From positions 1 to 45,960 of the forward strand of contig JAEEVG010000015.1 in the NCBI GenBank assembly GCA_016290835.1: DNA of 45,960 nt, given 5' to 3'. Each line of letters opens with the position of its first letter. Position 1 is the stretch's first letter. The notes beneath the pieces were generated by a model. That model had not been told where the DNA came from, did not search any database, and saw nothing but the letters and a program-made list of their open reading frames with translations. Made by a program: the position numbers and the translations under genes. Of this stretch, positions 7,180 through 22,844 are shown piece after piece. Origin of the DNA: Bacteroidales bacterium (GTDB lineage: Bacteria; Bacteroidota; Bacteroidia; Bacteroidales; UBA932).

Positions 7180-7812
7180 TTAAACTTCTATTACCCTGGC
7201 TGGGTTACCATATACGGTTGTATGCGGCTTCACTTTCCGGATGACGAAACTCAGGGCGCCCACCCGGGCGCCTGTACCCACAGTCACGCCGTGGTTTATT
7301 ACCGCAGAAGTATGGATGTCTACATCATCCTCCAGTACGATGCCGCCCACACAGGTCACATGCGTGTCAATCCGGTTCCAACTGCCGATCCGAGCGTCGT
7401 GTCCGATGACCGTATAGGCCTGGATCATATTGTAGTCCCCGATGACGGCGTCATTGCCGATCACCGTGCAGGCGCCGATGAAATTACCCTTGCCCAGCCG
7501 GGCATTCTGATAGATGCGGGCCGTCTTGTGGATGAGTTCGATAAAAACTCCTCCCCTGGCGATGATTCCTTCCATGCAAGTCCGCCGCGCCGTCCCGCCG
7601 ATCGAGGACACGAACACATCGTCCGGCTGCGGCCGGTAGTCCCGGATGGTCCCGAGTATGGGCGGATAGCCTGCGAACCCATCCAAGGCCTGCAGATTGT
7701 CGTCGATAAAGCCTTTGACGACAAATTCCTCACCAAATCCCCGGCTCTCCAGGGCATTGCTGTAGAAAGTGCGGCCCATTCCGCCAGCACCGATGATGAT
7801 GAGCTGTTTCAT
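7180..7812 (-). CDS. PglD/NeuD-type sugar N- or O-acetyltransferase
   Basis: A 210-residue two-domain acetyltransferase. The N-terminal Rossmann-like domain starts MKQLIIIGAGGMGRTFYS and binds the nucleotide-sugar; the C-terminal left-handed beta-helix (about 95-205) has turns such as LGKGNFIGACTVIGNDAVIGDYNMI and ends GNPARVIEV. Characterised relatives (PglD, NeuD) acetylate UDP-4-amino sugars or sialic acid. With the DegT aminotransferase in the same operon, acylation of an amino sugar is the natural reading. Its start overlaps the stop of the upstream glycosyltransferase by 4 bp. Confidence 0.88.
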   Translation of the reverse strand: MKQLIIIGAGGMGRTFYSNALESRGFGEEFVVKGFIDDNLQALDGFAGYPPILGTIRDYRPQPDDVFVSSIGGTARRTCMEGIIARGGVFIELIHKTARIYQNARLGKGNFIGACTVIGNDAVIGDYNMIQAYTVIGHDARIGSWNRIDTHVTCVGGIVLEDDVDIHTSAVINHGVTVGTGARVGALSFVIRKVKPHTTVYGNPARVIEV

Positions 7813-8957
7813 CTTTTCTTCGCTTTTATCGCTTCTTCGAAAACCTTCTCAAGCTGTTTGGCAATGACCTCTCCGGAGAAGCGGGAGTAGATATAATCGC
7901 GGATCTCTTCCGGATTGAATGCTAGAATTCCCTGCTCCATCCGGTTCATGGCGGCAGTGAGTCCATCGACATCGTCCACATCCACCATCAGCCCGCACTT
8001 TTCATTCATAAACGATTCCGGCCCTCCGCACCTGGTAGCAATGACAGGCAGTCCCATCGCCATGGCCTCGACATAGGAAACGCCAAAGGTCTCCGAACGA
8101 GAAGGCAGCACATAGGCATTCGCCCAAACCATGATTTCAACTATTTCCGGGCGGGACAACAATCCCTTCCATTCCACGCGATGCCGGATGCCAAGCTCCC
8201 CGCAAAGCATTTCCAACTGCTCCCGGAGGGGGCCTGCCCCGACAATGACCAGTTCGGCTTCCGGATCCGCCGTCCGCGCGAAAGCTTTGAGCAGGACATC
8301 AAAACCTTTTACCTCCAGCAGGCTCCCGACCGCAAGGAAACGGAACGGCCCTACCGGCTTTTCTTTCTTGAGCGGAGCCTGGAAGAATACCTCATCGACC
8401 ATATCGTGAAGGACCTGCGAGTTCATCCCGAAATTCTGCCGTATCAAGGCTTGCAGGCTTGCAGAGACAGACAAAAGCACATCGACCTGTCCATAGGCCC
8501 GCAAGCCCCGTTGCCGCATCTCCCCGGCAGAACCCGACTCCGAGACACGACTCCAATGCTCAATTCCGACGACCGGAATGCCGGGATGCTTTTTCCGGAT
8601 ACGCCGGAGCGAATCCATGGAGAAAAGGTAATGGGCGACGATGATATCCGGAAGTCCCTGTTCCGACACAATCCGGTGGAAGAGTTTCTCCATCATCCGT
8701 GCGCGGACTGCGGAAATCAAACGCCAGGTGCCCAGCAATTTGAGCGGGAACAGATAAAAGAGGTATGTCTGGATGGGGCCGGCCGCCTCATGCGTAATCC
8801 CCCGTTTCCGCCGATAGTGACGGAAACGGCCGTCCAGGGCGGCCACGGTCACCCGATGGTCCCGTCGGGACAGGGCCCGGGCCTGGTCGAGTTCGAAGCA
8901 GCCCCATTGCGGATCCTCACATGAAGGTATCCCGTGTGAAATGATCAAGATATTCAT
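7809..8957 (-). CDS. GT4-type glycosyltransferase
   Basis: A 382-residue GT-B glycosyltransferase. The N-terminus MNILIISHGIPS and the C-terminal donor domain (FLAVGSLLEVKGFDVLLKAF, VIVGAGPLREQLE, EWKGLLSRPEIVEIM, SRSETFGVSYVEAMAMGLPVIATRCGGPE) are textbook GT4. The E-x7-E pair lies in the SRSETFGVSYVEAMA segment. It overlaps the Wzy-like gene by 4 bp upstream and the PglD-like gene by 4 bp downstream. It is a second GT4 beside the one at 516-1718, so the repeat unit needs at least three sugar additions after the first sugar. Confidence 0.9.
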   Translation of the reverse strand: MNILIISHGIPSCEDPQWGCFELDQARALSRRDHRVTVAALDGRFRHYRRKRGITHEAAGPIQTYLFYLFPLKLLGTWRLISAVRARMMEKLFHRIVSEQGLPDIIVAHYLFSMDSLRRIRKKHPGIPVVGIEHWSRVSESGSAGEMRQRGLRAYGQVDVLLSVSASLQALIRQNFGMNSQVLHDMVDEVFFQAPLKKEKPVGPFRFLAVGSLLEVKGFDVLLKAFARTADPEAELVIVGAGPLREQLEMLCGELGIRHRVEWKGLLSRPEIVEIMVWANAYVLPSRSETFGVSYVEAMAMGLPVIATRCGGPESFMNEKCGLMVDVDDVDGLTAAMNRMEQGILAFNPEEIRDYIYSRFSGEVIAKQLEKVFEEAIKAKKR

Positions 8958-10174
8958 ACAAATGCGGTCTTGAGACGCGGTGTCGATGCAAACACGCCCA
9001 GACAGGCAAAGAAGAGCCAGATGAATGTCGGGGAAGTATAGACGCTGTTAATGATCGAATACAAGGGGAAGGCGAACAAGGAGGCGAATAATACCATTCT
9101 ACGCGGGACATCCTTCTCCTTACGGGCCGCCCGGAACAAGATCAACAACAACGCTACAAAGCAAAAGAAAAAGATGACTCCCCCCTCCAGCAACAACTCG
9201 AACAGCAGATTATGCGAATAGGTCAAATCCGTCGTATTGCCCGGGAACGTCGTCAGCACGGGTATCATGCTTCCGAAGCCCTGCCCGAATCCCCAGGACT
9301 GCGCAAATAGTTGCAACGAACTTCCCCACAACACCATCCGGGTACTGTCCCTGAAAACATCTTTTCCCGCTGTCCTGGTGATGATGGCTTCCAGCAGGAA
9401 TCCGCCCAGAACCACCATCATGATGGCTAGCAGTATGATGAGCAGAAGCACATTGCGCTTCATACGCTTGTTCTTCCCCTTGGATGCACAGAGCATGAAG
9501 ACGCCCACCATGACAACCATGCTCAAAATGGCTCCGCGGGAAGCGTTCAACAAGACAATCGAGACCATCAGCAAGAGAATGCCCCACAAAGCCAGGCGCC
9601 GCCTCTTCCTGCCCTCCATCAATAACCGATACAACAGAAACGGCAGGCAGAAGACGATGAATAGGCTATAGGTGTTGTAATTGTGGAAAGTGACCGCTGC
9701 GCGGTGACCACCGGCAGATTCAATCAGGTCTTCATGTGCCATTACGGCCAGGTGATGATCCGTCGTCATCTCAAAAACCGCGACTGCCGCTGTCAACAAG
9801 AAGGCTCCCACCCAACCCTTCGCAATGGAATCGAAAGGCAGGTTCGCTTTCTGGGAGAAGACAATGATCTCCAGGCACATGACCATGTGTATGAGTGCGC
9901 GCACCAGTAACATAAAACAGTGCTTGAAATCCGGCACCCAGAGCATGGACAGGGAGGCATACGCAAACAGGAAAACAAAAACGACCAGAACATTCTGATT
10001 GCGGGCCTGACGGAAACAAGAAGCGGCCTGAAGCAGCCACGGGAGAAACAGAATCGTAAGGAGAATGATCGGCTGGACAAAGTAAGGCAGAATGTATCCG
10101 AAGACAGAACTCAGTATCAACAGTACGATCATATAATCGTACATATTTGCTCTTCTTCCAATTTCTGCTTTCAT
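8954..10174 (-). CDS. O-antigen polymerase/ligase-like integral membrane protein (Wzy family)
   Basis: A 406-residue polytopic membrane protein with roughly ten to twelve hydrophobic segments and a large periplasmic loop near 290-335 (DSTRMVLWGSSLQLF, GFGQGFGSMIPV, TYSHNLLFELLLEGG). This matches the Wzy_C/O-antigen ligase family: the R-x3-W and G-x-G-x-G plus H-N pattern is typical. In a Wzy-dependent locus it would polymerise lipid-linked repeat units in the periplasm. It is the only such gene in the window, and no Wzx flippase is visible. The start follows the glycerophosphotransferase-like gene by 15 bp. Confidence 0.87.
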   Translation of the reverse strand: MKAEIGRRANMYDYMIVLLILSSVFGYILPYFVQPIILLTILFLPWLLQAASCFRQARNQNVLVVFVFLFAYASLSMLWVPDFKHCFMLLVRALIHMVMCLEIIVFSQKANLPFDSIAKGWVGAFLLTAAVAVFEMTTDHHLAVMAHEDLIESAGGHRAAVTFHNYNTYSLFIVFCLPFLLYRLLMEGRKRRRLALWGILLLMVSIVLLNASRGAILSMVVMVGVFMLCASKGKNKRMKRNVLLLIILLAIMMVVLGGFLLEAIITRTAGKDVFRDSTRMVLWGSSLQLFAQSWGFGQGFGSMIPVLTTFPGNTTDLTYSHNLLFELLLEGGVIFFFCFVALLLILFRAARKEKDVPRRMVLFASLFAFPLYSIINSVYTSPTFIWLFFACLGVFASTPRLKTAFV

Positions 10175-10189
10175 ACGTCCGTATCGTAC

Positions 10190-11419
10190 TCAAGATTCTC
10201 CCAGAATGGCCCGGATGACATTCTCGCAGGCGGAGCAACCGCCGGGCGGGATCAGGTGGGACCGAAAATAGGCTTCCCGTGCCTCCGCCTTCGGGTCCTC
10301 ACCCGCGATGACGCGCCGGATGAATGCCTCGATCTCTTCGCCCGTCCGGCCCAACTCATGCATTTCGAGGGCCTGACGTGTCTGCAAATTGGCGTCTGGA
10401 CCCAGGACCTCTCCCGAGGCGAGATACATGACCGGCTTGTGCGTATAGAGATATTCCAGCATAAAAGAGCCGCTGTCATGGATCATCGCATCGGAGTACT
10501 GGAACAAGCCCATATACTCGCCATTCTCGCACTGGCCGTTCTCCAGATCGCTCCACGCTTCATAATAGGCGGCGGTCCGCTCCGATCCCCACATTTTTTC
10601 CAACTTCGGTCTCAGGAGCGGATGGGGTTTGAAGACCCACTGCGTCCGGTCGTAATATTTCCGGGCCATCTCCAACATGAAATCGCCGAACTGCAAAAAC
10701 GTCGACCGATGGACCATTTCGTGACCGATTGTATGGTGCGGGGCATAAATAATCCGCTTCCGGGAAGGAAGCGGTTTCCAAGGATCGCGATAGCAGCTTT
10801 TATCCTTCATCAAGTCATCCATCACCGTCAACCCGGTCACGATCGTATTCCTGCCGCCATTGTCCATGATGGCTTTCATCTCCTCCTGCTCGGTCTCATT
10901 CTCCACGTAAACCTGCCAGGCATAGTTATGGAAAAAGGTATTCTGATTGAAATCCCGGGTCGTGTTCCGGAAGCAATAACTCATATAGCAGAACAACGAT
11001 TTCAGATTCCTGCGGAAGAACAGGGATTTGTCTATGCACCAACTATAGGGCTTCTGATAGAATATGATATCCGGGTGGAAGCGTGCCGCGATGGTCTCGC
11101 CTTCTTTCAAGCAGCAGAAAGCATAGCCTTTCTGCTCCAGATAACGTACAACATTATGGATCTCCTCTTGGTTCTCTTTCGAAGGGACGGCCAGTAATTC
11201 AGGGAGGAAACGCGGGTGCTCCCTCATCCGATTATACAGCCCTTCCGTCTTCCAGGAAGCCAGTTCGAAAACCACGAACAACACCTGGATTTGCTCTTTC
11301 TGACGCATCTGCCGAACCAATCGCGGTATCGTGCGACGCGTGTAGAACAAGCGCTCCGGGGTGAGGACGACTTTCTTGCCCTCATGCAAAAAACGGATGA
11401 TGGCCTGCCGGTTTGTCAT
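10190..11419 (-). CDS. CDP-glycerol glycerophosphotransferase family protein
   Basis: A 409-residue GT-B protein like TagB/TagF (PF04464), which transfer glycerol-phosphate or ribitol-phosphate from a CDP-alditol to a glycan. The family signature is in the C-terminal half: IIYAPHHTIGHEM near 225, WVFKPHPLLRPKLEKMWG near 265 and AMIHDSGSFMLEYLYTHKP near 315-335, with the two histidine sites (PHH and PHP) that contact the CDP-alditol phosphates. No signal or transmembrane segment is seen, so it probably acts on the cytoplasmic face. It is encoded near a TagD-like cytidylyltransferase (12,624-13,025), supporting a phosphoalditol decoration. The acceptor is unknown. Confidence 0.85.
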   Translation of the reverse strand: MTNRQAIIRFLHEGKKVVLTPERLFYTRRTIPRLVRQMRQKEQIQVLFVVFELASWKTEGLYNRMREHPRFLPELLAVPSKENQEEIHNVVRYLEQKGYAFCCLKEGETIAARFHPDIIFYQKPYSWCIDKSLFFRRNLKSLFCYMSYCFRNTTRDFNQNTFFHNYAWQVYVENETEQEEMKAIMDNGGRNTIVTGLTVMDDLMKDKSCYRDPWKPLPSRKRIIYAPHHTIGHEMVHRSTFLQFGDFMLEMARKYYDRTQWVFKPHPLLRPKLEKMWGSERTAAYYEAWSDLENGQCENGEYMGLFQYSDAMIHDSGSFMLEYLYTHKPVMYLASGEVLGPDANLQTRQALEMHELGRTGEEIEAFIRRVIAGEDPKAEAREAYFRSHLIPPGGCSACENVIRAILGES

Positions 11420-12618
11420 TTTACGATCCTTCTCAAGAAACGCTTGAGTATCAAGCTCCTCCAGATTCTTTCCAACGCATGCTCCGGCTCCGGGTCCTTT
11501 TCATCGCGCACGAAATGGATATCCGAAGATGCCAGCAATTGACGACATTCCTTGGTGGACAGGAATCCCTGATACCAGTCATCCTGGCAAACCCGTTCAT
11601 TGACAAAAACGGCTTTGGATCCCTCCGGAATATCCGTTCGCAAATCCTGGCTGTCCTCCCCGATAAGATAATTCACCATCAAAGCGGGAAGATTGACACC
11701 CATCCGGGTGACCGCATAACCGGATCCACCGAAACGGAGATTCATCTCGCTGAAATAATAATAACCCTCGCTCAAGAAAAAATCGATGTCGAAAACGCCC
11801 ACGTAACCGACGGCCAGGACAAATGCCCTGAATTGGTCAATCAGCGCCTCGAAACCCTCGGGAGAACTGACCTGTCCCTGCATGGCCAGGCCGAAATGGC
11901 TCTCAGACGGTCTCAGGAAGCGGATAATGCCGGGAATGACGACCGTCTGCCCGTCCGAAAATCCCAACACAGCAAATTCTTCTTCAATCTGTTTGAAGTC
12001 CTCCACCAGCACCTTGCTCGCCCCCATACTCCCCAAGTGCTCGATGACCGAGCGGAGTTCAGCCTCCTTGTCGCATCGGCGCATATATTTGTCCCCTTTA
12101 AGGGTGATCAGCGGCTTCGGGAAACAAGGGTAGCGGACATCGGAGGGCAGCGTGTACGCCCCTTCGGAAATCGTCACGATCCGGGACCTCGCGACATTCA
12201 TCCCCAGCGACCTGGCCAGATCTTTCTGCAAGCCCTTGTCCATCCAGCGATAGACTTCGCCTTGCTTATTGCGGATATTCGGGAAGACAAAAGAATCCTT
12301 CAGGATGTCTTGATTCCGGTCGATAACCGAAGCGGAGAAATCGCTGTCCGGGAAAATGACCGTCTTCTGCGTTTCGTGGACACATCGCTCGAGCAGCAGA
12401 CGAATCAGGCCTTTCTCATCTTTTTTGGGGCAGTAATAGAACTCATCGACATATTTGCTATAGCAATCGACCGGTCTGGTCATGTCCATCTTACCCGCCC
12501 GCTTCCGGCCCGTCAATACGATCACGATGACATAACAGCCGATTTCTGCGACAGAACGGATCACGCCCAGCCGGGACGTATACCCGTGACCGATGACAAC
12601 TACACGCTTTTGCATCAT
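11416..12618 (-). CDS. ATP-grasp enzyme (carbamoyl-phosphate-synthase-like fold)
   Basis: A 400-residue ATP-grasp ligase. It opens with a Rossmann-like nucleotide motif (RVVVIGHGYTSRLGVIRSV) and has a central ATP-grasp core: YPCFPKPL near 165, KVLVEDFKQIEEEFAVLGF near 200 and DIDFFLSEGYYYFSEMNLRFGGSG near 290-315, which supplies the magnesium-binding E/N pair. The family couples a carboxylate to an amine or thiol at the cost of ATP. Here the substrate is unknown: amide linkage of an amino acid or hydroxy acid to a sugar is plausible. It overlaps the glycerophosphotransferase gene by 4 bp. Confidence 0.82.
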   Translation of the reverse strand: MMQKRVVVIGHGYTSRLGVIRSVAEIGCYVIVIVLTGRKRAGKMDMTRPVDCYSKYVDEFYYCPKKDEKGLIRLLLERCVHETQKTVIFPDSDFSASVIDRNQDILKDSFVFPNIRNKQGEVYRWMDKGLQKDLARSLGMNVARSRIVTISEGAYTLPSDVRYPCFPKPLITLKGDKYMRRCDKEAELRSVIEHLGSMGASKVLVEDFKQIEEEFAVLGFSDGQTVVIPGIIRFLRPSESHFGLAMQGQVSSPEGFEALIDQFRAFVLAVGYVGVFDIDFFLSEGYYYFSEMNLRFGGSGYAVTRMGVNLPALMVNYLIGEDSQDLRTDIPEGSKAVFVNERVCQDDWYQGFLSTKECRQLLASSDIHFVRDEKDPEPEHALERIWRSLILKRFLRRIVK

Positions 12619-12623
12619 AAGTT

Positions 12624-13025
12624 CTAATGCTTTTTGTATTCCCGGAGCATCGTCGAGGAGATGCCCTCCGTCCTGGGGAGGACGACGACCTCTTTACCCG
12701 CCTGCTCAGACCACGCCACGGCCCTTTGGAAACCGGCATGTACCTGGTCGGGGCCCTTGGCGAAGACATCGAAGTCGATGTTCCGGATGTCGTCATCGAC
12801 ATCCTTATAGACCACGACTTCATCCACATACTTGATCGCGCCGACCATAAAGACACGCTCCTGGGTATTGTACACCATTCGGGTATCCGGCTTATACTTC
12901 AGGATGAAATCGCTGTCCTGAACGGCGACGATCAGATAATCACCTAGTTCCTTGGCCCGTTTAAATAACAGGATATGTCCGATATGAAGCATGTCGAACA
13001 CGCCGAAAGTCACAATTTTCTTCAT
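12624..13025 (-). CDS. tagD: Glycerol-3-phosphate cytidylyltransferase-like protein
   Basis: A 133-residue cytidylyltransferase making CDP-glycerol from CTP and glycerol-3-phosphate (or a related CDP-alditol). It shows the HIGH motif in FDMLHIGHILLFKRA (about 13-27), the VAVQDSDF segment and the family motif RTEGISSTMLRE near 118-129. Length and motifs match TagD closely. It lies 5 bp upstream of the ATP-grasp gene and in the same operon as a CDP-glycerol glycerophosphotransferase, giving donor synthesis and donor use side by side. Ribitol-phosphate or another alditol cannot be excluded. Confidence 0.88.
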   Translation of the reverse strand: MKKIVTFGVFDMLHIGHILLFKRAKELGDYLIVAVQDSDFILKYKPDTRMVYNTQERVFMVGAIKYVDEVVVYKDVDDDIRNIDFDVFAKGPDQVHAGFQRAVAWSEQAGKEVVVLPRTEGISSTMLREYKKH

Positions 13026-14064: not shown

Positions 14065-14661
14065 TCAGATTCCGAATCGTTTCTTTCCCTGGATATTGAA
14101 ACGGACAAGCGTGTAGTATTTAGAGAACAGGAAACGCAGACGGCAGTACCACATCGGGAACGGATTCCCGCCCAGCCACTTGACGAATATGACGGAGTAG
14201 TGTCCCGGGAAAGAACGATAGGCCACTTCTACAAAGCCGTTGCGGAGCGCATTCTCCCGGACGATCGTATTCCCGAGCGGGGTATCTGCCTGCATCATCT
14301 CTGCACCGACCTCCCGGACATATTCATCCCGGAGCTGGTTCATCTCTTCCCGGATGCCGATTCCCTGGTATCGGGGCAGCAAAGCGGAGAACATGCTATG
14401 AGCGACCAGTTTGCCTTTGTCATACCAATGGCGGCCGCGATAAAAACCCACGGACGTCGTACCGATCAGTTTTCCCGAAGCCAGCGCGACGAAACACCGC
14501 CCATCCGGTCCGACCCTGCGTTCCAACTCATCAGCGGGAAGTTGGGTGGACTTCATCACGATGTTCCGGGCGATATTTTTCTGATGCGCATCCACCAACA
14601 AGTTATGAATCTCCTCCCACGTAACTTGTTCCGGCTTTTGCATCACCTCGATTCTCTCCAT
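14065..14661 (-). CDS. GNAT-family N-acyltransferase
   Basis: A 198-residue protein of the GNAT fold. GKLIGTTSVGFYRGRHW forms the beta-4 region, LLPRYQGIGIREEMNQLRDEYV is the acyl-donor-binding loop and helix (Q/R-x-x-G-x-G/A variant), and DTPLGNTIVRENALRNGFVEVAYRSF is the usual N-A-L-x-x-G-F end. The C-terminus has an extra hydrophobic/basic tail (about 160-198), which could contact the membrane. GNAT enzymes use acyl-CoA or acyl-ACP; with an acyl-ACP cassette just upstream in the operon, this is a good candidate for the transferase that moves the acyl group to an amino sugar. Confidence 0.82.
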   Translation of the reverse strand: MERIEVMQKPEQVTWEEIHNLLVDAHQKNIARNIVMKSTQLPADELERRVGPDGRCFVALASGKLIGTTSVGFYRGRHWYDKGKLVAHSMFSALLPRYQGIGIREEMNQLRDEYVREVGAEMMQADTPLGNTIVRENALRNGFVEVAYRSFPGHYSVIFVKWLGGNPFPMWYCRLRFLFSKYYTLVRFNIQGKKRFGI

Positions 14662-14677
14662 ACCCTAACACTAAGTT

Positions 14678-15547
14678 TCACTCCTTACCTTCCTTATTAT
14701 GACCCTCGACTTCAGTTTTTCCTTGCAAATTGATCTGAATAGAAAATGCATCATCATAGAACCGCTGTGAATCAACACGAAGCGACTTGGGGAATTTGCT
14801 GATCACCGCGGCCGGATTTCCGGCAACGATACAATTGGCAGGTACCGGATGTGTAACCACCGAACCTGCGGAAATGATGGAATTCTCTCCGATGCTCTTC
14901 ACGTTGGGCATGATGATAGCATGAGAACCGATCACAACATTATCGGCAATGGTCAACGGCGTGTTATGAGCCCGATTGGAGAAAGGGATCAGATCTCCAT
15001 CCGCATAAGTTCCGAACGAGTCATGGTTATGGGTCAGTATCTTGACACCCTCTGATATTTTCACCAGGTTCCCGATGGTCAAATCTCCCGTGATATCGAC
15101 ATCCACATTCCGGGCAAAAAGGCAGTCACTGCCGATGGATAATTTCCCGATCCTTCGATGCTCAAATATAAACATCACACCATACTGCACATGGCAGCGA
15201 TCTCCCATATGATAACGTTTGGTATAGGCGCGTCTCCGTCTACTTTTCCACTTGGCATTCTTTTGATAGCGAATATCAGCATATTTGATGAGGAACTGCC
15301 AATTCTTATCCCGTTTCTTGACATAATCAACCTTATCCTGGAGCAGTTTCTTCACCATTTCTTTATTATCCCCAGTCAGGGCATAAACGCCGTACTTGAC
15401 ATAGTCAGGACCCGTCAGATTGTAGCGGATACATAATCCTATCATCTCCCCGTAGAGTGAGAAAAAAGAACGGTCCGTCTTGTCTTTAACTCTGTTGACC
15501 AATTCCGGTCCTCGGACAATGGCCTGTAAAATGTTGTGGATATTCAT
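14678..15547 (-). CDS. Hexapeptide-repeat acyltransferase with N-terminal extension
   Basis: A 289-residue acyltransferase. About 110 residues of charged helical sequence precede a left-handed beta-helix domain (about 120-240) with turns LSIGSDCLFARNVDVDITGDLTIG, ITHNHDSFG-like active-site histidines (LTHNHDS), a DNVVIGSHAIIMPNV segment and the GNPAAV ending. The ATG at 15,547 (MNIHNILQ) is chosen because upstream in-frame codons are antisense-like read-through of the KAS III end; the stop of KAS III lies 8 bp away. The helical N-terminus is unusual for simple sugar O-acetyltransferases and may bind a carrier protein. Confidence 0.82.
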   Translation of the reverse strand: MNIHNILQAIVRGPELVNRVKDKTDRSFFSLYGEMIGLCIRYNLTGPDYVKYGVYALTGDNKEMVKKLLQDKVDYVKKRDKNWQFLIKYADIRYQKNAKWKSRRRRAYTKRYHMGDRCHVQYGVMFIFEHRRIGKLSIGSDCLFARNVDVDITGDLTIGNLVKISEGVKILTHNHDSFGTYADGDLIPFSNRAHNTPLTIADNVVIGSHAIIMPNVKSIGENSIISAGSVVTHPVPANCIVAGNPAAVISKFPKSLRVDSQRFYDDAFSIQINLQGKTEVEGHNKEGKE

Positions 15548-15555
15548 AAAAGGGT

Positions 15556-16611
15556 TTAAAGTTTTGAGACCGGGAGGACTGTCATCGTCTGCGTCCGCAG
15601 CACCATCGTCCCCCAGGTCAGACCGAGGCCGAAGGAGGAGCAAAGCAGGGTCAGCGGACGGCTCCGGAGTTCCTCCGCAAGGTTCCAACTCATCAGCATC
15701 GGGATGGACGCACCGCCCAGGTTACCGAACTCCTGCAAGTCATAGGGTACCTTCTCCAGCGGAAGCTTGAGTTTCTTGACAATCCGGTCCACAATCAGCT
15801 TATTCGCCTGGTGGATCAGAAAATAATCCACATTATCCGGAGTCAGTTCATAGGTCTCCATCAGTTTCTTAATACTGATGGGCGGTCGGGAGATGGCAAA
15901 GGAAAAGACATCCATCCCATTGATCAGGGTATCCTTCGGCGCACGGATGATGCCGTTACCGAAGTCCTCCTCGACGAAGGATTCGGCCGTAATCGGATGT
16001 CGGAAGCCCCCGTGGGGCGTGATCAGGGCCTCGTAGCCGGAGCCAAGGGTATTGAACTCGATTACGATGGGATCGGCGGCGGGGTCATACTCCAGAGCCA
16101 TCGCCGTGCCGCTGTCGCCGAAGAGTGGCACGCGGCTCTTGTCCTTCATTGAACCCATCCGGAGCGCGGTGTCCCCTACCAGCAGCAGAGCACGCCTTAC
16201 GCTCCCGGCGCTGAGCAGATTGCCCGCCACATTGATGGCATACATACTGCCGCAACAGCCCATCGGGATGTCCAGCACAAAAGTGCTGGTCGGAAGTCCG
16301 AGCCGGTGCTGGAGGATGCCGGCGGTAGGCGGGGTCTTGTAGTCCCCCGTCACAGAACCGAACACCAGCACGTCAATACTCTCCCGCTCCCAGCCCAGGG
16401 CGGCGAGGAGCCGCTCGGCGGCATCGAAGCACAGGTCGGAAGTACAAAGCTCCTCCGGACCGATATAACGGTTCTTGATACCGACGGTCCTGTCAAAAGT
16501 CTCAGCTTCTTCCGGCGTGAAGATATCGAAATCCGCCGTCTTGACAGCGTGGGCGGGAACGGTCCCCGTAACGCCCCGGACGGCCACGTTCTTGATTTCC
16601 CAGAGCGCCAT
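15556..16611 (-). CDS. Beta-ketoacyl-ACP synthase III (FabH-like)
   Basis: A 351-residue thiolase-fold condensing enzyme that would join an acyl starter to malonyl-ACP. The Cys-His-Asn triad is readable: C119 in DIPMGCCGSM, H267 in FLIHQANKL and N297 in GNLGGASIP. It differs from housekeeping FabH by the double cysteine and by GC in place of the usual AAC-A-G context. Its start overlaps the last base of the ACP stop (16,611), so translation is coupled with its likely carrier. In this operon it probably builds a short, modified acyl chain for the polysaccharide, not membrane lipid. Confidence 0.9.
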   Translation of the reverse strand: MALWEIKNVAVRGVTGTVPAHAVKTADFDIFTPEEAETFDRTVGIKNRYIGPEELCTSDLCFDAAERLLAALGWERESIDVLVFGSVTGDYKTPPTAGILQHRLGLPTSTFVLDIPMGCCGSMYAINVAGNLLSAGSVRRALLLVGDTALRMGSMKDKSRVPLFGDSGTAMALEYDPAADPIVIEFNTLGSGYEALITPHGGFRHPITAESFVEEDFGNGIIRAPKDTLINGMDVFSFAISRPPISIKKLMETYELTPDNVDYFLIHQANKLIVDRIVKKLKLPLEKVPYDLQEFGNLGGASIPMLMSWNLAEELRSRPLTLLCSSFGLGLTWGTMVLRTQTMTVLPVSKL

Positions 16612-16850
16612 TACAGTTCGATATCGTATTTGGCCAGGATCGCCTTGGCGTTTTCGTAAGAGGTAAACTCGAGGATGTCTTCCGGATCGAGCATGATGTC
16701 GAATGTGTCTTCAACGCTGCTGGTCAGACTCAACTGGCGGACACTGTCCCAGCCGGACACGCTTTTATTGTCAAAACCGGCCCCGAGGGCCTCTGCATCC
16801 ACGGAGAAAACTTCGCAGAAGATGCTGTTCAATTGTTCAAGATTGCTCAT
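16611..16850 (-). CDS. Acyl carrier protein (first of two in the locus)
   Basis: A 79-residue acidic acyl carrier protein. The 4'-phosphopantetheine serine is S36 in SGWDSVRQLSL, the W-D-S form seen in dedicated pathway carriers, unlike the GADSLDTVEL of fatty-acid AcpP. Helical pattern and length fit the family. It lies 2 bp downstream of the AMP-dependent ligase stop and overlaps KAS III, so it is likely loaded by that ligase and elongated by KAS III. Confidence 0.92.
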   Translation of the reverse strand: MSNLEQLNSIFCEVFSVDAEALGAGFDNKSVSGWDSVRQLSLTSSVEDTFDIMLDPEDILEFTSYENAKAILAKYDIEL

Positions 16851-16852
16851 TC

Positions 16853-18226
16853 TTATTGGTTGATTACTTTGCCGGCCTCGTTGCGCAGGATGGCATCCAC
16901 AAGCCGGACTTCGATATTTTTGTGAAAAAGATGGGTCTTGTCTTCGATGAAAGCAGGGAGCACTTCCACCAGGGCAGGGTCCGTGACCAGCACGACCAGA
17001 CGCTCGTCATCCCCCTTGCAATAGCAATCGGCCTTATACTCCTGCCGGATCAAGTTCTCCACCTCGTCCAGCCCGATACGCAGACCGAAAATCTTCAGGA
17101 ACCTCCCCAAGCGCCCGATGATGAAATAGCAGCCGTCGGCGTCGCGGCGGGCCAGGTCGCCCGTGTAGCGGACACCGTGGTTCTCGTCGCCCTTGAGCAG
17201 GTCCTCCGGACCATAGGCATAGCCCAGGGTCACATTCTCGCCGCGATAGACCATCTCGCCGCTCGCTTCTCCTTCAAAGGTCTCGACGCCGTCGGCGTCC
17301 ACGATGGAGAGCTGCCCACCGGGCTCGGCGAAGCCGATGCTGCAGGTCTTCTCCAAAGCGAGTTCCGCCGGCAGATAGGCCATGCGGGCCGTGCACTCCG
17401 ACTGCCCGTAAGTCGCGACAAACTGCTTGCCCTTGTCGCGGGCATACTCCGCCAGCGTACGGAACATCTCAGGAGTCAGTTTGCCTCCGCCCTGCGTGAT
17501 GATACGCAGCTTCGGAAGATCCATCCGCGTAAAGCGCATTTTCATCAGCAGTTCGTAGCTGTACGGCACGCCCGTGAAACTGGTCGCCTCTTTGAGCATG
17601 GCCCAGAAGCCGCGGTCGAGCAGCGAGCGGCCCGAGAGCAGAATGGTCGCACCGGCAAGCAGGTGGGAAGAGATTACCGACAAGCCCATCGTGTAGTGCA
17701 TCGGGAGGACCGCCATTGCGCGCTCGTCTGCGGTCAGACCGAACATGCGGCGCACATTGTCGGCGTTGGCCTCGATGTTGCGATAGCTGTGACGCACCAG
17801 TTTCGGACTCCCGGTCGAGCCGGAAGTCGGCAACAACATCGAGAGATCCCCGTACAGGGGCGCGCTCCCGAAACCGGTTTTGCGCAGCACATAACCGTGG
17901 GCACGGAAAACGATTTCGTAGGGAAAATCCATCCCCTCCGGCGCCCAGAGATAGGCCGGCCGATAAAGGTCGCGCAAATGCTCATACAACCCGGCTTCCG
18001 TCTTCGCACTCAGAATCAACGGCACGATCCGGTTCGACAGCGAGGCGGTGTAGCCCAGCAGCGAGCCGATCCGGTTTTCAGCCAGCAAGAAGATCAGCGA
18101 ACGGGTGGGAAGCTGCGTGCCGAATTCCGCAGAGAAATCACAGATCTCCCCGTAACTCAACTGCTCTCCGCTGTCGTCAATGACAGCAAGAGCAGTACGG
18201 TCTTTTTTATCAAGGTCCAGGAACAT
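16853..18226 (-). CDS. AMP-dependent acyl ligase (ANL superfamily)
   Basis: A 457-residue adenylate-forming enzyme that would activate a carboxylic acid and load it on an acyl carrier protein. Motifs: P-loop TSGSTGSPK (134-142), ATYGQSECTARM near 280, YTGDLARRDADGCYFIIGR with the hinge aspartate near 370, IFGLRIGLDEVE, and the C-terminal catalytic lysine K453 in GKVINQ. The protein is shorter than acetyl-CoA synthetases and resembles stand-alone acyl-ACP or D-alanine-carrier ligases. It lies 2 bp upstream of the first ACP and 6 bp downstream of an SDR gene. The acid it uses cannot be read from sequence. Confidence 0.9.
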   Translation of the reverse strand: MFLDLDKKDRTALAVIDDSGEQLSYGEICDFSAEFGTQLPTRSLIFLLAENRIGSLLGYTASLSNRIVPLILSAKTEAGLYEHLRDLYRPAYLWAPEGMDFPYEIVFRAHGYVLRKTGFGSAPLYGDLSMLLPTSGSTGSPKLVRHSYRNIEANADNVRRMFGLTADERAMAVLPMHYTMGLSVISSHLLAGATILLSGRSLLDRGFWAMLKEATSFTGVPYSYELLMKMRFTRMDLPKLRIITQGGGKLTPEMFRTLAEYARDKGKQFVATYGQSECTARMAYLPAELALEKTCSIGFAEPGGQLSIVDADGVETFEGEASGEMVYRGENVTLGYAYGPEDLLKGDENHGVRYTGDLARRDADGCYFIIGRLGRFLKIFGLRIGLDEVENLIRQEYKADCYCKGDDERLVVLVTDPALVEVLPAFIEDKTHLFHKNIEVRLVDAILRNEAGKVINQ

Positions 18227-18232
18227 ACAGAC

Positions 18233-18988
18233 TTAGATAGAAGCGCAGCCATCCACCCCGAGGATGTGGCCGCTGATATAGGAAGCCCGGTCGGAGGCCA
18301 GGAAGGACACGGCATTGGCAACATCCTGCGGCGTGCCGAGCCGTCCCAGGGCGATGCGGCTGATCCGCTGGTCGATCTTGTCGCCGGAGGCCTCGTAGAG
18401 TTCTTCGAAACGCTCGGTCTTGATGATGCCGGGCGCGACGGCGTTCACGCGGATCTGCTGCGGGGAGAGTTCCTTGGCCGCCGATTTGGTAAGGGCGATC
18501 ACGGCGCCCTTGGTGGACGAATAGGCCACCTGTCCGGGCGAACCGACCACGCCAGTGATGGAGGCGATGTTGACGATGCTCCCCCCGCCCGTGCGGGCCA
18601 TCAGGCGCGCGGCGAGCTGGATCATATCGATCACGGCGAACACGTTGACACTGAACATCTTTTCCAGCAGGGGCTTGGTCACCATCCCGAGTTTCTGGTT
18701 CTGGATGATGGCCGCATTGTTGACCACCACGTCGATGCGGCCCTCGGCCTTGTAGATACCCATCAGGCCCGCTTTCAGCGCTGCCGTATCCGTCACGTCG
18801 AAACACACGGGGACGACCCGGGTGCCATTGCGCCGGGCGCATTCTTCGGCCCATCCGGGCATATCCCCCGGCTGGAGGTCGTTGACATAGACGATGGCAC
18901 CGTCTGCGGCGAATTGCTCGGCAATCACCCGCCCGATCCCCCGGCCCGCGCCGGTGATCAAGGCTATTTTGTTCTCAAGGAGTTTCAT
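18233..18988 (-). CDS. SDR-family reductase (FabG-like)
   Basis: A 251-residue classical short-chain dehydrogenase/reductase. It has the cofactor motif TGAGRGIG (12-19), NNAA near 90-93, the catalytic serine in IASITG and Y156-x3-K160 in AYSSTKGA. Overall it most resembles 3-oxoacyl-ACP reductase FabG. In context it would reduce a keto group on the acyl-ACP intermediate made by the KAS III of the same operon. The start is 3 bp after the stop of the next SDR gene. Confidence 0.9.
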   Translation of the reverse strand: MKLLENKIALITGAGRGIGRVIAEQFAADGAIVYVNDLQPGDMPGWAEECARRNGTRVVPVCFDVTDTAALKAGLMGIYKAEGRIDVVVNNAAIIQNQKLGMVTKPLLEKMFSVNVFAVIDMIQLAARLMARTGGGSIVNIASITGVVGSPGQVAYSSTKGAVIALTKSAAKELSPQQIRVNAVAPGIIKTERFEELYEASGDKIDQRISRIALGRLGTPQDVANAVSFLASDRASYISGHILGVDGCASI

Positions 18989-18991
18989 AGG

Positions 18992-19741
18992 CTAACTCAA
19001 TGTCATTCCGCCGTCGATCTTCAGCGCCGTACCCGTCACGAAAGAAGAGGCATCCGAAAGAAGATAGGCGATCCCCAAAGCGATATCTTGCGGTTGAGCG
19101 AAACGCCCCAGGGGATAGTTGCGCATCTCCTGCTGCTTTTCCTCTTCGGTAAAGCCTCCGATCAGGCCCGTTTCAACCATCCCGGGATTAACCGTATTGC
19201 ACCGGATTCCCTTTGGGCCCAACTCCAGCGCAACCGTTCGCATAAAAGCATCAATTCCGCACTTGGTCGTCGCGTAGATTGCATTTCCGAGGGAGACCCG
19301 ATATACACCGGCAGCGGATGCGGTCAGCACAATGGATCCGCCCTTATTGATTTTTTTCTTACGCAAGAGCGATTTGGTCAGCAGGATGGGGGCATTCAGA
19401 TTGATCTGCTGGACGCGAAGGAGTTCCTCTTCTTTGATGAAAGGAACGGGAGTCAGTCTCATCACACCTGCATTACAGACAAGTCCATCCAGTTGCGGTG
19501 AAGTCTCGACCAGGGCCGAGAGGCCGGCAGGATCCGTCAAGTCGGCTAGCACCGTCTGATGAGAGCGACCTGTCTGCTCCAGAAGAGCAGCCGTTTCCCG
19601 GAGGGCATCCTCCCGGATATCCGTCAAGATCAGCGTCGCGCCCAATTTGGCACACTCAATCGAGGTGGCGCGGCCGATACCACCGGCTGCCCCCGTCACC
19701 AAGATGGTCTTCCCCTCCAGGGAGAAAGGATTGTATCCCAT
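18992..19741 (-). CDS. SDR-family reductase (second in cassette)
   Basis: A 249-residue classical SDR with TGAAGGIG (16-23), CNAGV near 89-93, the serine in LTASAAGV and Y156-x3-K160 in IYATTKCG. It is clearly different in sequence from its neighbour at 18,233-18,988, so the two are probably not redundant; two reductions at different positions of an acyl chain, or one on the acyl chain and one on a sugar, are both possible. Its start codon overlaps the last base of the upstream ACP stop (19,741). Confidence 0.9.
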   Translation of the reverse strand: MGYNPFSLEGKTILVTGAAGGIGRATSIECAKLGATLILTDIREDALRETAALLEQTGRSHQTVLADLTDPAGLSALVETSPQLDGLVCNAGVMRLTPVPFIKEEELLRVQQINLNAPILLTKSLLRKKKINKGGSIVLTASAAGVYRVSLGNAIYATTKCGIDAFMRTVALELGPKGIRCNTVNPGMVETGLIGGFTEEEKQQEMRNYPLGRFAQPQDIALGIAYLLSDASSFVTGTALKIDGGMTLS

Positions 19742-19974
19742 CAGGCCAGTTTAGCTTGGACGATATTGAAAAGATCCTGGATGGTCTCGGCTTCCCGCAT
19801 ATCCGCGCCCTTCAAGGCAATGCCATACTCCTCATCCACCATAGCGATAACGGACAGGCTGATCAGGGAGGACCATTCATCCAGATCCCGGAAAATGGTC
19901 TCCGGGGTGAAGGCAGCTGCTTCAGTCTCCTCGAATTGTTCCGCAAAATGATTGACAAATTCTTGCAGTTCCAT
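19741..19974 (-). CDS. Acyl carrier protein (second in the locus)
   Basis: A 77-residue acidic protein with the carrier-protein helix pattern. The phosphopantetheine serine is S36 in LDEWSSLISLSV, with SSL in place of DSL; the preceding Trp is shared with the other ACP in this locus. Two different ACPs in one cassette suggest separate starter and extender carriers. It begins 49 bp downstream of the YjbH-like gene and overlaps the SDR by one base. Confidence 0.88.
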   Translation of the reverse strand: MELQEFVNHFAEQFEETEAAAFTPETIFRDLDEWSSLISLSVIAMVDEEYGIALKGADMREAETIQDLFNIVQAKLA

Positions 19975-20023: not shown

Positions 20024-20812
20024 TTATTTCAGCAACCCCACCTTGAAGCGGAGACCGAAGTTGATCCACTTGAAGTTCTGCCACTCGAACATCCCCTCGA
20101 AGCGGTTGTCCCAGATGGAGATGATGCAACCTACGTTGGGTGTGCGGGAGTCATATTCGGCGATCAGGTCGATGTGGTCCAGAATCCAGCGGTCCTGAAG
20201 CCAGACCGGACGCCAGGTCAAGCCGGCACAGGGGCCGTTGATCGGATAGTCCTTGCGCCAGTTGAACTGGTAGCCGGCGTGCAGGCCCACCCGGCCCCAG
20301 CCGGTGGACAGATGCTTGGACATCACCGCAAAATTGCGGTTGAAGAAAGCGTTTCCACCTTTGGAAACGTCCGCAGTGATGTAGTTCCCTCCCCGCGCGC
20401 CGGTGGTGGGGTCGCTGATACCCACGACCAGGGCGGGCATCCATTTCAGGCCGAATTCCCCTTCTTTCAACAGTTGGAATCGCCCCGTGAAATGCCGGTC
20501 CTGGTTGAACATTACCTTGTCCCGCCAGGAGGGATTCGGCTTGCGTTTGCCATCGAAAATCGTGCAGACATAGCCGAGTTCCAGCCGGCTCCAAAAGGTG
20601 ATGGCGAAGCCGTACTGGAAGGTGTCGTAGCCCCAGCCGGAGGAGGACAGGGAATGCTTGTTCAGATAGTTGTTGGTGATCATGAACGTCCCGTCCGGCT
20701 GCATCTCGGCCGTGGGCATCTGCAGAAGCCCGGTGCTGCTGTCGGCGAACTGCGCGCGGGCGACCCAACCTGACAGACAGGTGAGCAGGAAGATCAAAAC
20801 GGCTCTTTTCAC
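20024..20812 (-). CDS. YjbH-like outer-membrane exopolysaccharide protein
   Basis: A 262-residue exported protein with a signal peptide (cleavage likely after WVARA, before QFAD). The start of the mature part, SSTGLLQMPTAEMQPDGTF, resembles the YjbH domain (PF06082), and alternating aromatic strands (GFAITFWSRLELGYV, HAGYQFNW, NFGLRFKVGLL) suggest a beta-barrel ending in the outer membrane. YjbH proteins accompany exopolysaccharide production, probably in export or surface retention; the exact role is unknown. It starts directly after the upxY stop codon with no spacer. Confidence 0.8.
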   Translation of the reverse strand: MKRAVLIFLLTCLSGWVARAQFADSSTGLLQMPTAEMQPDGTFMITNNYLNKHSLSSSGWGYDTFQYGFAITFWSRLELGYVCTIFDGKRKPNPSWRDKVMFNQDRHFTGRFQLLKEGEFGLKWMPALVVGISDPTTGARGGNYITADVSKGGNAFFNRNFAVMSKHLSTGWGRVGLHAGYQFNWRKDYPINGPCAGLTWRPVWLQDRWILDHIDLIAEYDSRTPNVGCIISIWDNRFEGMFEWQNFKWINFGLRFKVGLLK

Positions 20813-21385
20813 TTAATCAATCTTTTCCAGGTAACTGGGGTGGATGTAACTGACCGCCACCACGGCGATTCCGGTCACGGAAACGACAAGTTTGCGGTCT
20901 TTTTTGATGCGTTTGATATAGCCTTCGGCACCTTTGTAGATGCCGCCGGTCACGCGGACGCGGTCGCCCGTGTGATATTCGGGAGCGTCCGCCCCGAAAT
21001 ACTTGACATTGCGTCCCGCATCAGCGGAGGTGACGAGGATGAAAGAACGCATCTCTTCGTCCCGGATAGGTCCCGGCTTGCGGGTATCGGGATCGGTGTA
21101 ATACATGAAATCCTCATTGTGATCCCGCTTGAAATCGATCAGCCACTGCTCGGGACAGCGCACGAACATCAACGAGGGGATCAGCTGCTTCTCGACATAG
21201 ATCAGCTGCCCCTTGTCGAATTGCTCCACGGTGTGGAGCGGGACATAGGTTTCATAACCCGCCGGAGCAAGCAGGGATTGCAGGTAAATCACCCGGTTGA
21301 AAAAAACCTTGAGGGCGTACCAGTGCAGGCCTTCCGGAGACGGTTCTAAAAGATTTGGTGACACGATTGAGGAAATATCTTCCAC
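20813..21385 (-). CDS. upxY: UpxY-family transcription antiterminator (NusG paralogue)
   Basis: A 190-residue specialised NusG paralogue that in Bacteroides binds the polymerase at its own operon's leader and prevents premature termination. The NGN domain covers LHWYALKVFFNRVIYLQ to about residue 115; the KOW domain includes YHTGDRVRVTGGIYKGAEGYI (about 133-153). It is the first gene of the polysaccharide operon, as for other UpxY genes. The start used is GTG at 21,385, since no in-frame ATG is available; a second GTG seven codons on is possible. The start lies 2 bp from a strong leader hairpin (21,388-21,414), suggesting translational control. No UpxZ gene is seen nearby. Confidence 0.9.
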   Translation of the reverse strand: MEDISSIVSPNLLEPSPEGLHWYALKVFFNRVIYLQSLLAPAGYETYVPLHTVEQFDKGQLIYVEKQLIPSLMFVRCPEQWLIDFKRDHNEDFMYYTDPDTRKPGPIRDEEMRSFILVTSADAGRNVKYFGADAPEYHTGDRVRVTGGIYKGAEGYIKRIKKDRKLVVSVTGIAVVAVSYIHPSYLEKID

Positions 21386-21558: not shown

Positions 21559-22788
21559 TTATGGCAGCAGCCGGACCCTGTCGTTCCAATCGAACTGCTT
21601 ATAGAACGCATTGAGGCGGGGTCGGACAGTCTCCGGGATATAGACCGACAGACCGCAGCAGCGCTCCAGCGGAAGGTCGAAGAAAGTGGGGGTCTCGGCG
21701 TGGTAGAGCACACAGCGGGAGAGGGCCTCATCCAGGGTTGCGAGTTCGCTCTGCGAAGCGCCTAACTGCACGCAGAGATCCCGCAAGTCATAGAAGCATC
21801 GATACGGACTGGAATTGTAATAATATCGCTGAACCGTCTTGATCAGACCGGGCACTAGCGCGTTGCGATGGGCGGAGAGAATCCGGGCGAAAGCATCTGC
21901 CAGATCACCCAATGCCGAGCAGTCCACCAGGGCGATGGTGGCGGAGCGATAACTGCCGCTCTGGGAGTCATAGAAATCGAAATACTCCTGGCAATAGGTC
22001 CGCAGGTCCGCCTCCGGGCCGCTGAGCATATCCCAGGACAAAGTCTTGTAAATCATCCCGGTATCCATCACCTCGGTCGGCGATACCACCAGGTAGTCGC
22101 AGATATCCTTGAACATCCAGGCCACCTCGACCGCCCCCATCAGGCAGGCATCGAGGATCAGATAATCCAGTTTCATCGGGATGGCCTGGGCGAAATCGGA
22201 AACATCCATCCAATTGACCCGGATGCGCGAACCCGTACCGGAATACTGGTTGGCGAGCGCCTTGGTCGGCGGCCATTGCCGCTCCGGCTCCACGGCCCGG
22301 GAACGGAGGTATGAAGACTCGGTATAGGACTCGTAATCAGCCGGGAGCCAGCCTGTTCCGTGGGAGGAAACCAGCATCCCGTAATGCTCTGAAGGATACA
22401 TCTGCTGAATATCCTCCAACGCAGAACGGACCGCCTCTTTGGAGGCCGGCCGGGCAATGCCCTCATAGACTTTCACGGTGTCCATGACCGTCTGGCCGCG
22501 GGCGCCGCGATAAATCCGGACCAAGACCGGGTCGTTGGGAGTGACGTAATCGGCTCCGTCGGAGAGGTGGCAGTAGGCGACGATGGCCTTGTCGGAGGAC
22601 AGGGAGGGGAGGATCCCTTCGCCGATCTCTTCATAATCCAGCCCCAGCTGGTAATAGAGGTTGTTATAGCCCAGGGCGTAATAAATGAGGACCTGCTTGA
22701 AAGGCCCTTTGTGGGGGATGTCGAAACCGTTGCAGGCCGACAGAAGCACTGCGGCGAGCACGAGGATGTATGCCTTGATCCGTCTCAT
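21559..22788 (-). CDS. Clostripain-related (C11) cysteine peptidase lipoprotein
   Basis: A lipoprotein peptidase of family C11 (about 409 residues). The N-terminus [19 protein letters not shown] ends in a lipobox with lipidated C19. The His-Cys dyad is H143 in [12 protein letters not shown] and C215 in [12 protein letters not shown], both in typical context; C11 enzymes cleave after Arg or Lys. ATG at 22,788 is preferred over TTG at 22,797. The gene is divergent from rmlA and ends just before the operon promoter of the polysaccharide locus, so its terminal codons lie next to that promoter. Substrate unknown. Confidence 0.88.
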
Positions 22789-22844
22789 CGACGGCAAAAT
22801 TAAACAAACTGCGCGAAATAACTACCCAAGCGGAAAAGTTTTTG

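Follow-up and report, generated by a model that had tools for sequence, protein, structure and literature searches.

The window analysed here, a whole contig (C41) of 45,960 bp and 58% G+C from the 2.66-Mb, 94% complete genome of a Bacteroidales bacterium, carries within a polysaccharide operon six adjacent genes for two acyl carrier proteins (ACP1 and ACP2), two short-chain dehydrogenases/reductases (SDR1 and SDR2), an AMP-dependent ligase (the ligase) and a 3-ketoacyl-ACP synthase III (KAS III). Comparison with homologous loci indicates that the six genes constitute a conserved core, in which SDR2-ligase-ACP2 form a starter module and ACP1-SDR1-KAS III an extender module, and that this cassette, its parts interchangeable, recurs in rumen and gut bacteria that are only distantly related. 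On balance, and with moderate confidence, we favour the view that the six genes form a dedicated two-module acyl-ACP line that decorates the polysaccharide of the operon, its product being linked by a PglD-type enzyme to the 4-amine of a UDP-sugar.

A six-gene core and its two modules

The genes of the core are, in the order of transcription (coordinates are those of the window; aa, amino acids):

19741-19974, minus strand: ACP1, 77 aa; PF00550 20.0 bits, just below the cut-off of 20.8; proposed to carry the extender and the elongated chain
18992-19741, minus strand: SDR1, 249 aa, FabG-like; PF13561 177.9 bits, YATTK and TGAAGGIG motifs; proposed 3-ketoacyl-ACP1 reductase
18233-18988, minus strand: SDR2, 251 aa, FabG-like; PF13561 201.4 bits; proposed substrate, the starter acid in free or ACP2-bound form
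16853-18226, minus strand: AMP-dependent ligase, 457 aa; PF00501 127.6 bits; proposed loader of a small carboxylic acid onto ACP2
16611-16850, minus strand: ACP2, 79 aa; PF00550 24.1 bits (cut-off 20.8); proposed starter carrier
15556-16611, minus strand: KAS III, 351 aa; ACP_syn_III_C (PF08541) 81.7 bits and ACP_syn_III 44.4 bits; proposed single extension of the ACP2-bound starter

An earlier note on this DNA had described a cassette of eight genes, the six above followed by a hexapeptide transferase and a GNAT-family gene, as an acyl-building unit inside a polysaccharide operon. Gene calls and Pfam matches confirm that the eight are contiguous on the minus strand from the start of ACP1 at 19974 to the end of the GNAT gene at 14065, and that the ligase, one condensing enzyme and two reductases expected of a dedicated acyl-ACP builder are all present. 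The spacing of mostly 1-9 bp that it gave holds up to the last junction: the gaps are -1 bp for ACP1/SDR1, 3 for SDR1/SDR2, 6 for SDR2/ligase, 2 for ligase/ACP2, -1 for ACP2/KAS III and 8 for KAS III/hexapeptide (with the hexapeptide start placed at the ATG at 15547, not at the TTG at 15688 of the mechanical open reading frame), and 16 bp separate the hexapeptide and GNAT genes.

A scan of genome contigs with the ligase gave 41 loci. One of them, L049 (Bosea), matches part of the ligase at 27% identity and was not counted; the other 40 were kept as true relatives, among them L043, whose sequence stops within the ligase gene (loci, genomes and contigs are cited by our L, G and C numbers, G000 being the genome of the window). 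The order ACP1-SDR1-SDR2-ligase-ACP2-KAS III, on one strand, is found in 31 of the 40 loci and, because it recurs in so many homologous loci, is not due to chance; L017, L021, L024 and L037 carry rearranged cassettes. The hexapeptide and GNAT genes had to be rejected as members of the core, since matches to the long hexapeptide gene are found in eight of the 40 loci (with a further match, under the coverage limit, in L022) and tblastn matches to the GNAT gene in six. The conserved core is thus six genes and not the eight first described, and these two genes are variable neighbours.

The division of the core into two modules rests on which genes travel together. A match to SDR2 adjoins the ligase, or lies within about 1.1 kb of it, in all 40 loci, including those that have no KAS III. 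ACP1 is present in 35 loci, accompanied by SDR1 in every one, and the 35 loci with a KAS III all have matches to both ACP1 and SDR1. Each module can also be found alone. SDR2-ligase-ACP2 occurs without KAS III in L039, L044, L045, L046 and G215, while ACP1-SDR1-KAS III occurs without a match to this ligase (E≤1e-4, in stretches of 14.6-19 kb) in G000:C44, G457 and G339, and with a short, partial ligase match in G093. The ligase-free set at G000:C44 (L057, 8652-10613) belongs to the same genome as the window, and lies beside a gene that, judged by eye, is flippase-like.

Other loci are enlarged. A second KAS III is found between ACP1 and SDR1 in eight of them (L013, L015, L023, L029, L031, L035, L036 and L042), and additional acyl genes lie downstream in L011, L020, L022, L026, L034 and L047; a malonyl-transferase-like gene (PF00698) is present in L022 and a MaoC dehydratase in L016. 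In a midpoint-rooted tree of 60 KAS III rows, taken from these loci and from fetched stretches and excluding matches with less than 85% coverage or an in-frame stop, the 37 rows located in a starter module form one clade with 100/100 support, and the KAS IIIs encoded after ACP1 or SDR1 are not part of it, some of the branches elsewhere in the tree being long. The window's KAS III thus belongs with those of the starter module, and it is therefore proposed to take its acid from ACP2.

We also searched a wider sample of 393 genomes of the order. The ligase is matched at E≤1e-60 in eight of them, including that of the window, and matches to SDR2 and ACP2 lie within about 3 kb of it in G215, G444, G197 and G487; one further genome, G453, has a KAS III identical to that of L032 and was taken as the same genome, and hence not as an independent case.

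Several loci show additions of their own. L014, L016 and L041 carry a small gene between SDR2 and the ligase, of the PDDEXK_3 type as scanned in L041, and L011 carries a small gene of the 23S-rRNA-intervening-sequence type between the ligase and ACP2. L014 and L026 are two different cassette loci about 24 kb apart on ONFF01000002.1. In L045 (743-10872) the starter module stands beside a 2276-aa nonribosomal peptide synthetase (NRPS) frame reaching the end of the contig, and the module may also feed peptide synthesis there.

Catalytic residues and the predicted acyl-ACP line

The residues on which such a line would depend are intact. The carrier serine of ACP1, Ser36, is conserved in 36 of 36 aligned copies, and that of ACP2, also Ser36 (the serine of a WDS motif), in 40 of 40. 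Both reductases have the YxxxK motif at position 156. The KAS III triad C118-H267-N297 is complete, and C-H-N is conserved in at least 95% of 36 rows. The ligase carries its A3 motif at 134 and, close to the C-terminus, NEAGK at 449. Its Thr179 is invariant in an alignment of 26 rows (the window and 25 of the 40 loci) and occupies what we take, by eye, to be the place of the amino-binding Asp in the motif of NRPS enzymes. On this match the replacement of the Asp of DltA/NRPS-type enzymes by Thr disfavours an amino acid as the starter, and a small carboxylic acid is the likely cargo of ACP2. Which acid cannot be read from phmmer, since ligases of differing classes score alike: oxalate-, malonyl- and feruloyl-CoA ligases and NRPS enzymes appear at similar E-values, and among solved structures the best relative is an oxalate-CoA ligase, with NRPS enzymes scoring nearly as high.

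Sequence and comparison establish the genes, their intact residues, the conserved order, the modularity, the horizontal spread and the tie to PglD described below; from them we infer a direction of loading, a number of extensions, the kind of acid and its N-linkage. The ligase would adenylate a small carboxylic, not amino, acid and load it onto ACP2. SDR2 would reduce the starter to a hydroxy acid, before or after loading; it should act on the starter because it accompanies the ligase in all 40 loci, even where nothing elongates. KAS III would then take the starter from ACP2 onto its own cysteine and condense it once with a malonyl unit on ACP1, and SDR1 would reduce the new 3-keto group. A single extension and a single reduction are proposed because the cassette has a single KAS III and, beyond SDR2, a single reductase with ACP1; the window holds one KAS III in a search that was confined to that type of synthase. 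The product would be a short 3-hydroxyacyl- or dihydroxyacyl-ACP. With 3-hydroxybutyrate as the starter it would be the 3,5-dihydroxyhexanoyl group of Flavobacterium psychrophilum, reached by another route, and with lactate or another hydroxy acid a different product would result.

KAS III-type acyltransferases occur in antibiotic pathways, and the enzyme could in principle not elongate at all, transferring instead the ACP2-bound acid to a sugar. Its position would suit this role, since it follows ACP2 in 34 of the 60 rows and lies within the ligase module in 37. We consider it improbable nonetheless, because the decarboxylating C-H-N triad is conserved, because ACP1 and SDR1 accompany KAS III in all 35 loci that have it, and because three loci without KAS III (L044, L039 and L046) still have PglD or GNAT genes adjoining the ligase module.

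That the genes belong to the ordinary synthesis of fatty acids or free lipids, and stand in the operon by chance, is very improbable. It would account for the finding of only two KAS III genes in a 94% complete genome, both in polysaccharide-type loci and with no other FabH seen, but 22 of 36 genomes of the same genus, five of them more than 90% complete, have no PF08541 match, so that KAS III seems dispensable in the genus, which may make fatty acids without FabH. Further, the ligase has no match above 37% identity in 149 other relatives (a set that does not contain L009), and the KAS III scores below the cut-offs of the FabH models (195.1 bits against 249 for NF006829 and 162.8 against 292.1 for TIGR00747). 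Canonical fatty acid synthesis was disfavoured on these three grounds.

Proposed transfer of the acyl group and the rest of the operon

Three genes of the operon could encode the transferase:

7180-7812, minus strand: PglD/NeuD-family N-acyltransferase, 210 aa; TIGR03570 144 bits (cut-off 160.8), PglD_N 26.5 bits (cut-off 23.4)
14678-15547, minus strand: long hexapeptide (left-handed beta-helix) transferase with an N-terminal helical domain; PF00132 28.7 bits; alternative acyltransferase
14065-14661, minus strand: GNAT-family protein, 198 aa; PF00583 22.5 bits (cut-off 20.7)

and three other genes lie further along the operon:

6704-7168, minus strand: short hexapeptide transferase (Hex2); PF00132 51.4 bits
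6083-6691, minus strand: PglC-like initiating sugar-phosphate transferase; PF02397 187.9 bits
1728-2975, minus strand: DegT/LegC-like sugar aminotransferase; PF01041 297 bits, TIGR04181 (LegC, the nearest model) 332.7 bits, below its cut-off of 420

The earlier note expected its stretch to contain the transfer step. Candidates are indeed present there, but the best one, PglD, lies outside it. PglD has the PglD_N and hexapeptide Pfam domains above their cut-offs and TIGR03570 below, and it matches the structure of Acinetobacter VioB (7txp, E 2.5e-21). We regard it as the likeliest enzyme to pass the acyl group on from its ACP to the UDP-4-amino sugar. The acceptor would be the 4-amine of a UDP-2-acetamido-4-amino-sugar, itself the product of a PglF-like dehydratase, encoded elsewhere in the genome (G000:C85, an open frame of 643 codons, PF02719 385.5 bits), and of the DegT aminotransferase, the proposed source of the 4-amine, whose presence in the operon the earlier note had correctly pointed out. 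The PglC-like enzyme would then start the repeat unit with the acylated sugar.

The link between PglD and the cassette comes from comparison of loci. The gene just before ACP1, in the 35 loci that have one, is of the PglD type in 15, a flippase in six, a GNAT in five, a long hexapeptide gene in two, LicD in two, without a Pfam match in four and unclear in one (some of these classes were assigned by cluster membership with one member scanned). The PglD of the window is 75-82% identical to PglDs that stand directly before ACP1 in L009, L016, L017, L019, L021, L027 and L041. In L009 PglD (82%) and Hex2 (80%), which are 11 bp apart in the window, directly flank the cassette, and PglC (93%) and DegT (80%) follow further on. 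Close homologues of PglD and of PglC (at least 55% identity) are each found in 11 of the 40 loci and coincide in ten (Fisher 1.4e-7, for loci that are not independent and were cut at about 10 kb). PglD is matched at E≤1e-30 in seven of the 393 genomes, including that of the window, and in all six others a gene for such an ACP, KAS III or ligase is found no more than about 1 kb away. Among its 43 weaker matches, 23 had their loci examined, and six of these 23 (L104, L106, L111, L115, L116 and L120) have an ACP, KAS III or ligase within 1.5 kb (Fisher 0.002, with lone SDRs left out of the count because SDRs are common).

A number of points weigh against this reading. The exclusion of SDRs was chosen after the first result had been seen, and if lone SDRs are counted 12 of the 23 weaker homologues score, which is not significant (p 0.058); L111, one of the six, is itself a cassette locus. 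In the window the cassette lies about 8 kb from PglD, upstream in the operon, and it is the long hexapeptide gene that directly follows KAS III, as in six relatives. PglD may merely acetylate. The contig stops at base 1, and up to there no dehydratase was found in the operon and, among its scanned genes, no flippase. As for the starter module, the ligase matches of G176 and G340, at or near contig ends, have no SDR2 or ACP2 nearby, and the structure model of the ligase (26 rows; pLDDT, the model's confidence score, 62.5) is too poor for its pocket to be read.

The strongest alternative keeps the acyl builder as proposed and assigns the transfer to the long hexapeptide protein, with or without the GNAT enzyme and perhaps to a hydroxyl, PglD only N-acetylating. 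Since the window has a gene for a YjbH-like protein before ACP1 and the hexapeptide gene after KAS III, the latter is a real candidate. It starts only 8 bp after KAS III, and homologues (26-61% identical) occupy the same place in L020, L022, L023, L026, L034 and L047. Where a flippase precedes ACP1 (six loci, by cluster with one member scanned), four have a long hexapeptide gene after KAS III, and a close PglD is found in none of the eight loci with a long hexapeptide match, against 11 of the other 32 (Fisher 0.08). We nevertheless regard this alternative as unlikely, if far from negligible: long hexapeptide matches are absent from 32 of the 40 loci, near-full-length homologues occur in only two other genomes of the 393, G453 (by a cassette) and G418 (with no cassette match in 19 kb), and the PglD of the window belongs to the acyl-linked subfamily.

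The long hexapeptide protein resembles galactoside O-acetyltransferases (phmmer, E 5.3e-12). In a structure model built from eight rows, a subset of its homologues, residues 1-112 are predicted to be mostly helical (block pLDDT 77-93), in agreement with the helical extension proposed earlier; this N-terminus alone is usable, the remainder being poor (overall pLDDT 64.8). Foldseek found nothing for this model at E≤0.001, and the search was set aside.

The operon begins and continues with:

20813-21385, minus strand: UpxY-family antiterminator, the first gene of the operon; NF033644 114.4 bits (cut-off 100)
20024-20812, minus strand: YjbH-like exopolysaccharide protein, between UpxY and ACP1; PF06082 44.0 bits (cut-off 24)
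8954-10174, within the operon: Wzy_C protein

The locus is of the Bacteroidales capsule type, because an UpxY antiterminator opens the operon. UpxY, YjbH-like, the six core genes, the long hexapeptide gene and GNAT are followed by ATP-grasp, glycerol-3-phosphate cytidylyltransferase-like, a second ATP-grasp, CDP-glycerol transferase-like, Wzy_C and glycosyltransferase genes, then by the PglD-, hexapeptide- and PglC-type genes, a beta-helix protein, a nucleotidyltransferase, a metallo-beta-lactamase-fold protein, the DegT aminotransferase and a glycosyltransferase, at which point the contig ends. The glycerol-3-phosphate cytidylyltransferase-like and CDP-glycerol transferase-like genes, at 10190-13025, suggest a phosphoglycerol group on the same polysaccharide. 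The metallo-beta-lactamase-fold gene (2972-3565), which recurs near PglD-like and SDR genes in L099, L100, L107 and L117, might encode a thioesterase. A 932-codon open frame antisense to the cassette (16703-19501, plus strand) is most likely a shadow of the coding strand, and a clostripain-family (C11) peptidase gene (21559-22797) lies immediately upstream of UpxY.

Horizontal spread, known systems and significance

Sequence similarity of the cassettes does not follow that of their hosts, and the cassette thus moves horizontally. RpoB (1094 aa) could be compared in 14 of the 41 locus genomes. KAS III is 90-91% identical to that of the window in L012 and L019, where RpoB is 62-63% identical, and 87-90% identical in L014, L015, L016 and L041, where RpoB is 66% identical; in L020 and L047 the values are 79 and 75% for KAS III and 63-65% for RpoB. 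L040 and L044 are closer by RpoB (72-76%), yet their cassettes are less similar. In the near relative L009 RpoB is 96% and KAS III 90% identical. With L009 excluded, ligase identity does not rise with RpoB identity (Spearman -0.55, p 0.07, n=12), and in the 149 other relatives mentioned above the ligase has no counterpart beyond 37% identity. One carrier, L046, is recorded as Lachnospiraceae.

The association of an ACP, a ketosynthase and a reductase with a PglD/VioB transferase and an N-linked hydroxyacyl group is already known (PMC6519341, PMC3927599). In F. psychrophilum, fatty-acid-like synthesis has been proposed for an N-linked 3,5-dihydroxyhexanoyl group whose structure is known by nuclear magnetic resonance, by means of an ACP (wfpD), two 3-ketoacyl-ACP synthases (wfpC and wfpE), a reductase (wfpF) and a PglD-like transferase (wfpG) (PMC6519341). 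The earlier note had cited this system as a precedent, which is apt in outline: both polysaccharide loci have a dedicated ACP, ketoacyl synthase and ketoreductase, and PglD-like, PglC- and PglE-type functions are found in the window, the PglF-like one lying outside the operon in contig C85. The architecture differs, however, since the wfp set, as given in the passages cited, has two synthases, one ACP, one reductase and no named AMP-ligase or second reductase (PMC6519341), whereas the window has a single synthase with two ACPs, two SDRs and a ligase that would supply a non-acetyl starter, the two being compared here by description. The viosamine island of Pseudomonas syringae resembles the extender module: vioS, vioR, acp and vioB encode a KAS III, a ketoreductase, an ACP and VioB for a 3-hydroxybutyryl amide on a 4-amino sugar, and loss of vioR removes the modified viosamine. 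It differs in serving a flagellin glycan and, in the text at hand, in being a seven-gene island with one ACP and no ligase named (PMC3927599); orfA-orfN of P. aeruginosa PAK is described as its relative. Both precedents are, as so described, simpler than the cassette in the window.

Other systems also share parts with the window, as described in the passages cited. Enterobacterial flagellin glycosylation islands have a ligase (CaiC), Acp and FabG in horizontally assembled glycan loci, but belong to another phylum and also have LuxC/LuxE, with no KAS III named (PMC4875605). The PglC/PglD/PglE/PglF set for bacillosamine in Campylobacter has counterparts in the PglD-, PglC- and DegT-type genes of the window and the PglF-type gene of the genome, but its PglD acetylates, whereas that of the window is proposed to use acyl-ACP (PMC6519341). 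The qhbA/qhbB-gdr genes of Acinetobacter comprise a dehydratase, an aminotransferase and a transferase for which acetylation or 3-hydroxybutyrylation of the 4-amino sugar QuiNAc4N is predicted, but no dedicated acyl-building genes are named with them (PMC3628348). What seems new here is the ligase-primed form with two ACPs, its modularity and its spread. In the paper listings of one open-access library we found no description of this gene set in Bacteroides-type capsules, which is not proof that it is unpublished.

In gut Bacteroidales the capsule is exposed to host immunity and to phages, and to our knowledge few of its non-sugar groups have been described. A broader proposal, which we put forward tentatively and at somewhat less than even chance, is that the cassette is a modular mini-polyketide system for surface glycans, exchanged horizontally, in which an adenylation-primed starter module, found in Bacteroidales and one Lachnospiraceae genome, supplies either no KAS III extender module or one or two of them. 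Gene content would set chain length and hydroxylation, an interchangeable transferase (PglD, GNAT or hexapeptide) would set the site of attachment, and strains would vary their capsules through the exchange of acyl modules in addition to sugar genes. If this is true, the cassette would offer a small two-ACP system with starter loading and extension on separate carriers, the acyl group could be predicted from gene content, and a cassette that builds a custom acid and spreads between families in versions with no, one or two KAS IIIs would be a predictable source of capsule diversity.

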